Of a stretch of DNA of 64,000 nt, positions 8,487 through 61,422 are shown in pieces. The translations under genes and the position numbers were made by a program. Location of the stretch: positions 62,001 to 126,000 of the forward strand of contig JAUYCX010000037.1 of NCBI GenBank assembly GCA_030692045.1. The letters are read 5' to 3'. The DNA comes from Candidatus Omnitrophota bacterium (GTDB taxonomy: Bacteria; Omnitrophota; Gorgyraeia; JAUYCX01). The notes beneath the pieces were generated by a model. That model did not search any database. It saw only the letters and a program-made list of their open reading frames with translations, and was not told the DNA's origin. Every line of letters starts with the position of its first letter. The stretch's first letter is position 1.

Positions 8487-9251
8487 TTGAAGGTTTTAAT
8501 CTTGGCTGCTGGCTATGGCACTCGGCTTTATCCGATTACTAAGGATACGCCAAAACCGCTTTTGTGGATTGACGACAGCCCTTTAATAAACTACATTTTG
8601 GGAAAAATTAAAAAATTTGATTTTATAAAAGAAGTTTTTGTTGTAACGAATGATAAATTCTATACAAATTTTAAAGAGTGGCATAGTTGTTTGAATGAAC
8701 CATTTAAAAAATTATCTATCAAAATAATTAATGATGGCTCAACTTCTGTCGAGAACCGCTTGGGTGCAATGGGTGATATAAATTTTGTGATTCAAAAAGA
8801 GAGCGTTAAAGATGACATTTTAGTTATCGGCGGAGATAATCTTTTTGACGAGGGGTTAGAAAAATTTATTGAATTCTCACAAAGCTTAGGCAAAGAAGCC
8901 ACAATTGGTTTATTTGATATCGGAAATAAAAAAGAGGCTAGCAAGTTTGGCGTGGCAGGACTTGACAAAGATAATAAGGTTATTTCTTTTGAAGAAAAGC
9001 CAAGGCAACCCTCTTCTACTCTAATTGCGATGTGCCTTTATTATTTTTCTTATAAGACATTTGAGTTTATTTCTCAATATTTGAAGGAAACCGTTAAGCA
9101 TGATACAACCGGTGATTATATAAATTGGCTTCATTCTATAATTCCCGTATATGGTTTTATTTTTAAGGGCAAATGGAGTGATATTGGACATATCGATTCA
9201 CTATGTGATTGGGATGAGGGTTATTGTAAGTATAAATCAAATGAAGCCTAA
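8487..9251 (+). CDS. Sugar-phosphate nucleotidyltransferase
   Basis: Activates a sugar-1-phosphate with an NTP (glucose-1-phosphate thymidylyl/uridylyl-transferase-like). The N-terminal signature LILAAGYGTRLYPITKDTPKPLL binds the nucleotide, IGGDNLFD supplies the metal-binding Asp, and FEEKP is the conserved sugar-site motif. The 254-residue length matches small RmlA-like enzymes without an extra domain. The start is a TTG at 8487, chosen because AAAGGAG lies about ten bases upstream and the product then begins exactly at the conserved MKVLILAAG. The last codons (Asn-Glu-Ala-stop) lie inside the left end of the inverted-repeat element at 9239. Substrate not determined. Confidence 0.88.
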   Translation: MKVLILAAGYGTRLYPITKDTPKPLLWIDDSPLINYILGKIKKFDFIKEVFVVTNDKFYTNFKEWHSCLNEPFKKLSIKIINDGSTSVENRLGAMGDINFVIQKESVKDDILVIGGDNLFDEGLEKFIEFSQSLGKEATIGLFDIGNKKEASKFGVAGLDKDNKVISFEEKPRQPSSTLIAMCLYYFSYKTFEFISQYLKETVKHDTTGDYINWLHSIIPVYGFIFKGKWSDIGHIDSLCDWDEGYCKYKSNEA

Positions 9252-9460
9252 ACTTACGGAGCGTAAGCGAACGTAAGTTTGTTGGCTGAATTTGACCCAG
9301 CACTAATTTTTGAAAGAGCGCTTTATTAAAAACAAATGGTAAACTCAGTAAGTAACCCAAGAATTCTGAACACCACACTATTACAAAAATTAGTGCTGGA
9401 TTTAATTCGGGCAAATAACTTACGTCAGCATTCGCTTCCGTAAGTTATGCCCTCATTAAA
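9239..9460. repeat. Composite inverted-repeat element, copy A
   Basis: Left part has a hairpin (AAACTTACG 9250-9258 with CGTAAGTTT 9272-9280); right part has a matching hairpin (AACTTACG 9417-9424 with CGTAAGTT 9439-9446). Between them a long-range perfect 16 bp stem joins CCAGCACTAATTTTTG (9297-9312) to CAAAAATTAGTGCTGG (9384-9399), enclosing a ~70-base loop. Ends read AAATGAAGCC and GCCCTCATTAAA. The left end carries the stop codon of the upstream gene and the right end runs straight into the GGAGG of metK. Copies B and C share the core stem; copy D shares the layout with a different core. Confidence 0.88.
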
Positions 9461-52174: not shown

Positions 52175-52212
52175 ACATATTATGGCTTACCAAAAGCGTA
52201 ACTTAAAAGGTC

Positions 52213-52446
52213 AAATGAAACCACGACTTATGGAACGAAGTGAACATAAGTTTGCTGGCTGAATTTGACCCAGCACTAATTTTTGAAAGAGCACTTATAA
52301 GATATGCAGGAGTTCATTAACAATATCCCCTAAATCCTTAAAACGCACTATTACAAAAATTAGTGCTGGATTTAATTCGCACTTATAAGTTATGTCGTCC
52401 GCCAAAGTTCTGTGGCGGACTCCATAACTTATGTGCTCATTAAAGG
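52213..52446. repeat. Composite inverted-repeat element, copy B
   Basis: Same core stem as copy A: CCAGCACTAATTTTTG (52270-52285) with CAAAAATTAGTGCTGG (52354-52369). Left hairpin ACTTATG/CATAAGT; right hairpin ATAAGTTATG/CATAACTTAT with a further hairpin GTCCGCCA/TGGCGGAC at its tip. Ends AAATGAAACC and GCTCATTAAA. The loop between core arms shares AAAGAGC and CACTATTA with copy A but is otherwise different. Confidence 0.88.
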
Positions 52447-52488: not shown

Positions 52489-53424
52489 ATGGCTGAAATA
52501 AACTTAAATAAAATCAAAACCTATTCGCTTAAGAAAAGAAAAAGTAAGATAAATCTTAAAGAGTTTGCCGGTGTCTGTTCTAAGGGGGTAAGCTTTAAAG
52601 GCTTTTATAAATCTTTACCGCATATTCTTGCCGCAGAAAATCTTAGAGCAATAGCCGATGCCATTATCTTAAGCTGTAAAAATAAAAAACAGGTAATTTT
52701 TATGTTGGGCGCGCATGTAATTAAATGCGGCTTAAGCCCATTGATAATTGAGCTTATCAACAAGGGTGTAATTAAATGCATCTGTTTAAATGGCGCAGGG
52801 GTAATTCATGATTTTGAAATTGCTTATGCTGGTTTTACTTCTGAAGATGTTTTGTCTGGTTTGGAAAATGGCAATTTTGGAATGGCTAAAGAAACCGCTG
52901 AATTTATTAATAGCGCAATTGTTGACGGACAAAAAAAGGGGTTTGGTTTGGGTAGGAGTGTAGGGCAGGCGATAAAAGAGGGAAATCTTGCCCATAAAAA
53001 TTTAAGCATCTTGCATCATGCAGTTAAAAAAGCTATTCCAGTTTGCGTAAGTGTGGCAATTGGCACAGATATTATTCATCAGCATCCTTCTTTTGATGGC
53101 GCAGCAACAGGTTGGGCGAGCCAAAAGGATTTTAAGACCTTTGTGGAAATGGTTTCTTTGTTGGAAGGCGGTGTAATTGTAAACTTTGGCTCAGCCGTAA
53201 TCTTGCCAGAAGTGTTTTTAAAGGCATTGAATTTAGCCAGAAACTTAGGCTTTAAAATTAAAAATTTTACCACTGCAAATTTTGATATGATATACCACTA
53301 CAGGCCAGCGCAGAATCTGGTTAGCCGTCCTACTAAAGGATGCGGAAAAGGGTTTTATATTATCGGACACCACGAGATAATGCTGCCGCTTTTAACCCAG
53401 GCAATTATTGAACAGGTCAAATGA
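52489..53424 (+). CDS. Conserved protein, deoxyhypusine-synthase-like (tentative)
   Basis: I do not recognise this firmly. The 311-residue soluble protein has a Rossmann-like look with FMLGAHVIKCGLSPLIIELINKG, CLNGAGVIHDFEIAYAG, VAIGTDIIHQHPSFDGAATG and VVNFGSAVILPEVFLKAL-like segments, and a late NFDMIYHYRPAQN. The pattern recalls bacterial deoxyhypusine-synthase-like proteins of unknown function. The many His and Asp residues in GTDIIHQHPSFDG suggest a metal or NAD site. The clustering upstream of hldE-kdsB-pyrG-kdsA hints at a link to sugar or envelope metabolism. Its TGA lies inside the left end of inverted-repeat copy C. Confidence 0.6.
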   Translation: MAEINLNKIKTYSLKKRKSKINLKEFAGVCSKGVSFKGFYKSLPHILAAENLRAIADAIILSCKNKKQVIFMLGAHVIKCGLSPLIIELINKGVIKCICLNGAGVIHDFEIAYAGFTSEDVLSGLENGNFGMAKETAEFINSAIVDGQKKGFGLGRSVGQAIKEGNLAHKNLSILHHAVKKAIPVCVSVAIGTDIIHQHPSFDGAATGWASQKDFKTFVEMVSLLEGGVIVNFGSAVILPEVFLKALNLARNLGFKIKNFTTANFDMIYHYRPAQNLVSRPTKGCGKGFYIIGHHEIMLPLLTQAIIEQVK

Positions 53425-53816
53425 AGCCACGACTTATGTCACTTCGTTCCATAAGTCGTTTGGCTGAATTTGACCCAGCACTAATTTTATGAACATATAT
53501 TGGATTTATGTTTTGAAAGACAGAAATACAAGTGAGTCTTATTACGGTTATACCAATAACCTAGAAAGACGTTTAAAAGAACACGATATTGATAATAAAT
53601 GGAAATTTATCGGTTGTGAAGGATGCGCTTCAGAGTTAGATGCCAGAGAAAGGGAAAATAAATTAAAACATTATGGATAGGCAAGAACTCATCTCAAGAA
53701 CAGGCTTAAAAAATCGTTTCAATTGTAAAATTAGTGCTGGGTTTAATTCGCGCAAACAACTTATCTCGTCCGCCAACGAAGCAATGGCGGACTCCATAAG
53801 TTGTGCGCTCATTAAA
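53419..53816. repeat. Composite inverted-repeat element, copy C, carrying a GIY-YIG gene
   Basis: Core arms CCCAGCACTAATTTTA (53474-53489) and TAAAATTAGTGCTGGG (53726-53741) are perfect 16 bp complements. Left hairpin CGACTTATG/CATAAGTCG; right hairpin CAACTTAT/ATAAGTTG with the same tip hairpin GTCCGCCA/TGGCGGAC as copy B. Ends AAATGAAGCC and GCGCTCATTAAA. In place of the short loop of copies A and B it holds about 236 bases encoding a GIY-YIG protein. The left end includes the stop codon of the upstream gene; the right end stops one base before the hldE ATG. Confidence 0.88.
53489..53680 (+). CDS. Small GIY-YIG nuclease domain protein, interrupted by in-frame TAG
   Basis: Single-domain GIY-YIG protein of the UPF0213/YhbQ-like kind. 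Seen: IYVLKDRN (first strand), YYGYTNNLERRLKEHD (second YIG-like strand and the conserved Arg) and ELDARERENKLKHYG (conserved Glu helix). The frame stops at TAG 53678-53680 after 63 residues, but reading on gives ARTHLKNRLKKSFQL and then TAA (53726-53728), which is the usual basic tail of this family; full length would be ~79 residues. CAG to TAG is the simplest explanation. The A of the ATG and all of the TAA lie in the perfect stem arms of element C. No ribosome-binding site is evident. Pseudogene, readthrough or a functional short form are all possible. Confidence 0.75.
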   Translation: MNIYWIYVLKDRNTSESYYGYTNNLERRLKEHDIDNKWKFIGCEGCASELDARERENKLKHYG

Positions 53817-60433: not shown

Positions 60434-61136
60434 AGGTTTAGTTAAGAGTTATTCTGGCCGCTGTGTCGTAGATAAGGTTAACGTAGTAGTTAAGCGCGGA
60501 GAAATCGTGGGTCTTTTAGGTCCCAATGGCGCAGGAAAAACTACTACCTTCTATATGGTAGTTGGGATAATTACGCCTGACAAGGGAGAGATTATTTTTG
60601 ACCAGCGTGATATCACAAAATTTCCCATTCATGAACGCTCGCGTTTGGGCATAGGTTATCTTTCGCAAGAGCCATCAATATTTCGAAAGTTAACAGTTGA
60701 AGAAAATATTATGGCGATTTTGGAGACACTTAACATTAGCCCAAGGGAGAGAAAGAGAAGATTAGATGCGCTTTTGGAAGAGTTAAATATTGGCCACTTA
60801 AGGAAAAATAAGGCTTATACATTATCCGGCGGTGAGAGAAGGCGCTTGGAAATTACTCGCGCGCTGGTAACTAATCCGTCGTTCATACTTTTAGATGAGC
60901 CGTTTTCTGGCATTGACCCGATTGTGGTAGCTGAAGCACAGGAAATAATCAAGGATTTAAAGAATAAGGGCTTGGGTATTTTATTAACCGACCACAATGT
61001 GCGAGAAACGCTCTCCATTACTGACCGGGCATATTTAATTGCCGAGGGAAAAATTTTAATTTCTGGCACTGCCCATGATCTTATTAACGACACCCAGGCG
61101 CGCCAGATTTATTTGGGTGAGAAGTTTAGGATGTGA
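60414..61136 (+). CDS. lptB: LPS export ABC transporter ATPase
   Basis: ATPase of the LptBFG extractor. Walker [10 protein letters not shown] (36-44), Q-loop in [19 protein letters not shown], signature LSGGE (137-141), Walker [14 protein letters not shown] (D161/E162), and H-loop in [10 protein letters not shown]. The [21 protein letters not shown] stretch is specific to LptB. Length 240 fits. lptF and lptG are not in the window. Its stop codon overlaps inverted-repeat copy D. Confidence 0.96.
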
Positions 61137-61420
61137 ATGAGGACATAACTTATGGAGCTCGAAGAGCGACATAAGTTATAAGTCCGAACTCACCCCCCAC
61201 CACTTTTTGTAAGTGCGGGGTTAGTTGAAATAAGAGTTGGATTAGTATCTGTCTATAGAATTAGAATAAACCGCTGTTTCAAAAAGTGGTGGGGGGTTAA
61301 ATTCGCGCAAATAACTTACTCATCCCCTGAAATTGCTTTGCAATTTCGGGGATTTAATCCCGGAAATCGCTTTGCGATTTCACGGGACACTTTTGTGTTC
61401 GTAAGTTATACGCTCATTTA
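61136..61420. repeat. Composite inverted-repeat element, copy D (different core)
   Basis: Same layout as copies A-C but with a new 17 bp perfect core: CCCCCCACCACTTTTTG (61193-61209) with CAAAAAGTGGTGGGGGG (61280-61296). Left hairpin ATAACTTAT/ATAAGTTAT; right hairpin ATAACTTAC/GTAAGTTAT carrying two tip hairpins (CCCC...CAATTTCGGGG and CCCGGAAATCG/CGATTTCACGGG). Ends AATGAGGAC and CGCTCATTTA. The linker TTAAATTCGCGCAAATAACTTA matches copies A and C. It spans the whole lptB-tig junction, up to two bases from the tig ATG. Confidence 0.88.
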
Positions 61421-61422
61421 AA

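Follow-up and report, generated by a model that had tools for sequence, protein, structure and literature searches.

A probable family of transposable elements in Omnitrophota with a small GIY-YIG nuclease as its only protein

The window, a stretch of 64,000 nucleotides from an Omnitrophota genome of 119 contigs (G000:C9:62001-126000), contains members of what is probably a transposable family of the Omnitrophota: the family encodes a single protein, a small GIY-YIG nuclease with flanking inverted repeats of its own, and MITE-like derivatives accompany the gene-bearing units. The units are mobile, duplicate their targets and occur both with and without the gene. Their landing sites are translation-start signals, namely the Shine-Dalgarno (SD) sequence for units with outer hairpins and ATGAA start codons for bare units. 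To our knowledge, no class of DNA transposon uses a GIY-YIG nuclease. No published description of such an element was found in the open-access literature (a subscription paper could have been missed), and a survey of the GIY-YIG superfamily from 2006 does not mention inverted repeats or palindromes.

A composite element with a nested GIY-YIG gene

The gene-bearing element of the window is composite (Table 1): from the outside in, a hairpin is followed by an inverted-repeat arm starting with CCC, by the gene (or, in other copies, a short interior) and then by the mirror image. The right outer hairpin ends 1 bp upstream of the start ATG of a sugar-kinase-like gene. The initial annotation had described the gene as nested exactly in the element, and the fit is indeed exact: the ATG starts at 53489, where the left arm has its last base, and the TAA (53726-53728) provides the first bases of the right one. 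The gene is not intact, however; codon 64 is a TAG (53678-53680) where relatives have CAG (Gln). Readthrough of a reassigned TAG was considered and ruled out, as TAG ends 7 of 47 long ORFs and is thus a normal stop in the host genome, and the copy on contig C98 is interrupted by a TGA. The window copy has lost its autonomy; the two intact genes, at C9:11310 and C71:537, could serve it in trans.

Table 1. Coordinates of the composite elements in the window and of the parts of the gene-bearing one
Feature	Position	Strand	Description
Composite element with GIY-YIG frame	53417..53816	+	hairpin, inverted-repeat arm, gene, inverted-repeat arm, hairpin
Left outer hairpin	53417..53473	+	TCAAAT/ATTTGA arm, GA/GA internal loop, AGCC/GGCT stem, ACTTATG stem, variable tip
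Left inverted-repeat arm	53474..53489	+	CCCAGCACTAATTTTA
GIY-YIG nuclease frame	53489..53728	+	79 codons and TAA; in-frame TAG at 53678-53680
Right inverted-repeat arm	53726..53741	+	TAAAATTAGTGCTGGG; includes the final TAA of the frame
Right outer hairpin	53742..53816	-	GA/GA loop on the minus strand
Gene-less (MITE-like) copy	52211..52444	+	core CCAGCACTAATTTT, arm spacing 86 bp
Gene-less (MITE-like) copy	9237..9460	+	core CCAGCACTAATTTT, arm spacing 89 bp
Fourth composite element	61134..61421	+	core CCCCCCACCACTTTTTG (given also as CCCCCCACCAC)

The 79-amino acid protein consists of a single GIY-YIG domain (Pfam PF01541, E-value about 1e-9). By profile, the nearest solved structures are UPF0213 (1zg2), SLX1 and I-TevI; a search with an AlphaFold2 model (two input sequences, the TAG codon of the window copy read as Q; pLDDT 78) ranked 1zg2 and SLX1 highest, at weak E-values. 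An alignment of 12 divergent members has fourteen invariant columns, Y, R, H and E residues among them. Comparisons of divergent nuclease copies gave dN/dS values of 0.04-0.12, indicating purifying selection and thus a protein that is kept for its function.

Copies in the window and in the host genome

Three copies with one core had been recognised initially, and all three carry the exact sequence CCAGCACTAATTTT with its complement, but a fourth composite element with a different core was missed. In another Omnitrophota genome, a gene-bearing unit (L074) has the core of this fourth element as its inverted repeat; in the window, the element lies between a gene for an LptB-like ABC-transporter ATPase and a trigger-factor-like gene. 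The 3' end of the copy at 9237 adjoins the SD-like AGGAGG of a metK-like gene downstream.

Genome-wide, based on pattern searches and fetched stretches, CCAGCACTAATTTT has 78 exact matches (38 forward, 40 reverse; none for a reversed control pattern), many more than chance would give. Almost all of them form inverted pairs with a spacing of 34-36, 84-90 or 252 bp. They define 40 elements: 38 exact pairs and two with one mutated arm. In 36 of the 40 there is no gene and the spacing is mostly 84-90 bp (34-36 bp in two); the remaining four, with 252-bp spacing, have the GIY-YIG gene, intact in two. None of the 40 contains any other gene or has room for one. A protein search of the genome likewise found exactly four nested GIY-YIG genes, and a broader Pfam search returned other GIY-YIG genes (UvrC-like, tRNA-adjacent and others), none of them so arranged. 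This differs from the single-copy housekeeping pattern of UPF0213/YhbQ: there are four copies, and all are within inverted repeats.

The short copies share nothing but the inverted repeats with the gene-bearing ones and are without a gene, which fits the initial reading of them as non-autonomous, MITE-like derivatives. RNAalifold, run on their interior, recovered the inverted repeat alone, with two inner pairs that change on both sides, and Rfam at a permissive threshold gave only chance miRNA-like matches, with no intron family and no family above chance.

One gene copy (G000:C98:20377-20613) is closer to a copy from G033, a genome of another family (dS 0.42), than to its paralogues in its own genome, which indicates either horizontal transfer or a contaminant contig; the listed contamination of this genome is 7.5%. 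Three further GIY-YIG genes of this genome adjoin tRNA-like sequence (L161, C14:287487; L162, C91:3975; L163, C51:10767), some with apparent repeated tRNA fragments beyond the gene, and perhaps represent a different, homing-type insertion.

The outer hairpins have a defined structure

Hairpins flanking the core had also been noted initially; they are present, but rather than loose flanks they are a defined structure, made up of a 6-bp arm that covaries, a 2x2 internal loop that is invariably GA/GA, and a stem of 4 bp. When 74 of 76 hairpin ends were parsed independently of the arms and of the 5' dinucleotide, GA was opposite GA in 72 of the 74. The 6-bp arms, of types that include TCAAAT/ATTTGA, TTTAAT/ATTAAA and TAAGT/ACTTA, pair in 65-72 of the 74 ends; two positions hardly vary, and the four variable ones pair in 70, 67, 68 and 65 ends, compared to maxima of 61, 44, 51 and 60 in 1000 shuffles. 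The GA/GA strand is the top strand in the left hairpin and the bottom strand in the right one: this is the symmetry of a DNA end and not that of one RNA.

In the host genome, hairpins of the identical kind also enclose cores other than CCAGCACTAATTTT, including that of the element at 61134. A core-agnostic scan of DNA that had been chosen around cores, and is biased to that extent, found hairpins nearly always attached to a CCC..GGG core, with two solitary ones (L046:1854 and L049:2079); double hairpins without core, considered as independent targets, were set aside on this biased sample. Many hairpin tips contain a small palindrome, GTCCGCC...GGCGGAC, for example at 52397-52422 and 53769-53792 of the window and in L034 and L063.

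Inner units that are 93-100% identical can have unrelated hairpins on one or both sides, and the other side may be 97-100% identical. Between L034:3443 and L062:1447, for instance, the inner units are 100% and the 3' hairpins 49% identical; further copies with alike inner units and unrelated hairpins are the window copy at 53474 compared to C9:11296 (L172) and C71 (L168). The orientation of the inner unit with respect to the hairpins also varies among copies. Near-identical inner units with unrelated hairpins suggest gene conversion or hairpin exchange in addition to simple transposition.

Inverted repeats follow the nuclease subfamily

Searched with a profile built from 12 nested proteins, 293 of 384 genomes of the class had a match; as all 12 are flanked by inverted repeats, the survey is biased towards genes flanked in this way. 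Among 117 distinct GIY-YIG genes, about 75 have an inverted repeat with a score of at least 11 (the 95th percentile of mismatched pairs), nearly always starting with (A)CCC and close to the gene. Together with the four copies of the host genome, which all lie within inverted repeats, this upholds the linkage of gene and repeat seen in the window and extends it to every close relative. The repeat types include CCAGCACTAATTTT, CCCACACCCAGCAATG, CCCCACACCAATTAT, CCCGCACCTTCT, CCCGCCCTTTTGGC, CCCGTTAGAGAT, CCAGCCCCTCCT and CCTTGACATTTTG, and there are two architectures: units flanked by hairpins, and bare units that consist of inverted repeat and gene without hairpins.

Inverted repeat and nuclease are associated (Mantel rho 0.39, null sd 0.053): in 66 of 73 cases the nearest protein neighbours, at less than 90% identity, have the inverted repeat in common, while 19 would be expected. 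A single genome, G033, holds several types of inverted repeat, each with its own nuclease. These comparisons show that every nuclease subfamily has an inverted repeat of its own and that the two co-evolve.

An exact-pattern search of the phylum with one bare inverted-repeat type returned nothing beyond the copy already known, and a search of phage DNA had no match. Some bare units appear to be nested or in tandem (L180/L070 in G021:C91 and L252 in G033:C50) and share ends of the type ACCCCGCACCTT.. or CCCGCCCTTCCT.

Insertion into translation-start signals

The junctions of congeners are empty at orthologous positions. In L171 (G059), AGGAGG is present on both sides of the unit, while G033 lacks the unit and has a single AAGGAGG in its place: the filled site reads TAATAGGAGG / TCAAATGA...TCATTGA / AGGAGG / AAAAATG and the empty one TAATAAGGAGGAATTATG. 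L101 compared with G059 gave an empty site of like kind, and neither empty site contains any palindrome. G054 and G025 differ by two polymorphic units with empty sites both ways, both just upstream of a start codon; their alignment indicates that some target sequence was replaced and that the join is not always clean. At one orthologous site G059 has a gene-bearing unit and G033 a gene-less derivative. The empty sites and target duplications speak for the minimal mobile unit with a GIY-YIG gene that was proposed for the window, with the nuclease as its presumed mover. Applied to gene linkage and to orthologous junctions, the check designed to refute that proposal did not do so.

Of 30 bare units, 20 have an exact duplication that is 4 bp or longer, mostly TGAA at start codons (mean 7.7 and maximum 13 in 2000 shuffled pairings); of the bare units with a left flank other than TGAA, 7 of 17 have a duplication, compared to 1.4. 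Among 18 bare units with a TGA right flank, 16 regain a start codon, GTG or ATG, that spans the element end and is in frame with long ORFs, and in 13 the end sequence of the element contains an SD-like motif. The target ORFs, named from their translated N-termini, are nrdR, leuD, rfbA-like, clpB-like and others; in L195, for example, ATGAA / CCCC...AGAAGGTGCGGGG / TGAAGTGTCCG reads GTG AAG TGT CCG, an NrdR-like start. Hairpin units have an SD-like motif directly 3' in 21 of 45 cases, compared to 3 of 45 on the opposite strand, and the likeness of their outer flanks is 4.62, compared to 3.84 in shuffled pairs (sd 0.15). The duplication is thus about 6 bp (AGGAGG, the SD sequence) for the hairpin type and 4 bp (TGAA) for the bare type.

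That translation-initiation sites are the targets had escaped the initial annotation. Sequence does not distinguish between a preference for such targets and selection that lets harmless insertions survive. The harmlessness itself is unusual: the element lands on a start codon or SD sequence and supplies the replacement.

How the element may move

The nuclease itself probably does the moving, a reading that is strengthened by its co-evolution with the inverted repeat and by the purifying selection on it. It would bind its own type of inverted repeat, perhaps in the form of an extruded branch or cruciform; such a substrate is proposed because the nearest structural relatives of the nuclease include SLX1. 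A staggered cut at the element ends and at the target, followed by joining and fill-in by the host, would leave the 4-bp (bare) or approximately 6-bp (hairpin-type) duplication. The hairpins that enclose the composite units, whose conserved GA/GA loops lie on opposite strands at the two ends, would be end structures at the DNA level. We know of no GIY-YIG nuclease that catalyses strand transfer, so that ligation or repair by the host has to be invoked. Since the two duplications differ, the hairpin type may depend on a second enzyme. Transposition leaves unaccounted for both the identical inner units with unrelated hairpins and the differing duplication lengths of hairpin and bare units.

These identical inner units would fit a homing-like process, in which the endonuclease cuts gene-less palindromes, is copied into them by gene conversion and leaves the dispersal of the palindromes to something else: inner units with 93-96% identity and unrelated hairpins look as if they were converted, with one flank, into pre-existing hairpin pairs, the variable orientation of the inner unit would follow as well, and GIY-YIG homing endonucleases are known. 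We nevertheless regard homing as unlikely. Bare gene-bearing units have entered a variety of genes that held no palindrome before, creating new duplications of 4 bp, the empty sites are free of palindromes, and inverted repeat and nuclease co-evolve, whereas homing endonucleases do not recognise their own element.

If, alternatively, the GIY-YIG gene were cargo, an unlinked transposase would have to act in trans, either a Y1/HUH enzyme such as RAYT or a DDE enzyme. The host genome has six Y1_Tnp genes, and REP/RAYT systems are a precedent for hairpin repeats associated with a Y1 enzyme (PMC3733652). None of the six genes is flanked by hairpins or inverted repeats of the element, and RAYT/Y1 was rejected as the mover. 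Transposition of the IS200/IS605 type is not known to cause a target duplication, while duplications of 4 and 6 bp are found here; the 40 core elements of the host genome hold no other gene, and the inverted repeat tracks the nuclease rather than the genome, as the several repeat types of G033 illustrate. We consider the cargo explanation improbable.

A chiefly regulatory role of the elements, as intergenic mRNA hairpins or insulators that selection maintains and to which the nuclease is incidental, can be dismissed almost entirely: the hairpins are strong, covarying, adjoin ribosome binding sites and lie between co-directional genes, but they are present or absent at orthologous sites, come with duplications and MITE-like derivatives, have GA/GA loops on opposite strands that suit DNA better than one RNA strand, and resemble no Rfam family above chance.

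Transposons are classified by the chemistry of their enzyme. If the nuclease is indeed the mover of the Omnitrophota element, an 80-residue nuclease with 14-bp inverted repeats would be among the smallest autonomous mobile elements.

Comparison with known systems and GIY-YIG genes of Proteobacteria

Among known systems, REPtrons (RAYT, also TnpA-REP, a Y1 HUH enzyme) have a similar organisation, with one small gene between inverted hairpins and many dispersed gene-less intergenic copies. The Omnitrophota element differs by a GIY-YIG instead of a HUH enzyme, by target duplications, by the GA/GA loops of its hairpins and by a separate inner inverted repeat; also, the GTAG tag at the hairpin foot of REPtrons is absent, the feet here consisting of an arm, for example TCAAAT or TTTAAT, and GA. 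With insertion sequences and MITEs it shares terminal inverted repeats, target-site duplications, autonomous and non-autonomous forms and empty sites. Its units encode, however, no DDE, HUH, serine or tyrosine transposase, just the GIY-YIG protein of approximately 80 amino acids, and its targets are SD sequences or start codons that are rebuilt by the element ends.

The GIY-YIG homing endonucleases I-TevI and I-BmoI have the same catalytic domain and are likewise part of selfish elements, but here there is no intron or intein, the 79 amino acids leave no room for a separate DNA-binding domain, and the element has its own inverted repeats and occupies dispersed, non-allelic sites at many unrelated genes. 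Penelope-like elements also use a GIY-YIG endonuclease in transposition; they are eukaryotic retroelements with a reverse transcriptase, which the Omnitrophota element lacks. Closest by sequence and fold are the small UPF0213/YhbQ-YazA proteins and SLX1 (PDB 1zg2, 7cq2-4); these are housekeeping or repair proteins without bounding inverted repeats (control: a Radiobacillus YazA-like protein). Integron attC sites resemble the folded hairpins by eye only.

The CGTC-tagged REPs, which include the neisserial dRS3, are also dispersed intergenic palindromes, mostly in head-to-head dimers; their sequence is unrelated to that of the Omnitrophota element, and the hairpins of the window differ from their consensus of CGTC tag, 8-9 bp stem, 4-5 nt loop and CCA tail. 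According to Di Nocera et al. 2013 (PMC3733652), they lack a dedicated transposase and their hosts include A. lipoferum, S. meliloti and Neisseria; GIY-YIG genes are absent from the passages of that paper that were consulted.

A protein search in plasmid records identified small GIY-YIG genes that are bracketed by long inverted repeats of CGTC-type palindromes in Azospirillum (between sufB and sufC), Rhizobium, Neorhizobium, Shinella, Sphingobium, Novosphingobium and Aeromonas; a GIY-YIG gene of Neisseria is bracketed by the dRS3 type and one of Sinorhizobium by another palindrome. Loci bracketed by CGTC or dRS3 repeats are L258, L260, L261, L263, L265, L267, L268, L270 and L273. As some bracketed loci are orthologous (Shinella, Sphingobium), there are about ten independent ones. 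On three stretches of 50 kb the inverted-repeat score of the GIY-YIG gene is 31-33; among the 115 other genes on these stretches, two IS transposases (28 and 14) and one other gene (14) score at least 14. Bracketing palindromes were absent from a YazA-like housekeeping gene and from the genes of Photobacterium, Acetoanaerobium, R. tumorigenes and Sphingomonas paeninsulae.

This possible link between GIY-YIG genes and CGTC/dRS3 repeats in Proteobacteria is a lead. We give even chances to the wider proposal that combines two parts: that the GIY-YIG protein is the sole mobility protein of a new prokaryotic transposable class that inserts into, and rebuilds, translation-initiation sites, and that related GIY-YIG genes encode the mobility enzyme so far missing for the proteobacterial CGTC-tagged and dRS3 repeats. 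Because similar GIY-YIG genes are bracketed by CGTC/dRS3 repeats, the published question of what disperses these repeats is now directly testable. On plasmid p1 of Planktothrix agardhii (L266), a GIY-YIG gene with only a weak inverted repeat lies between an MmeI-type restriction enzyme and the DISARM gene drmA.
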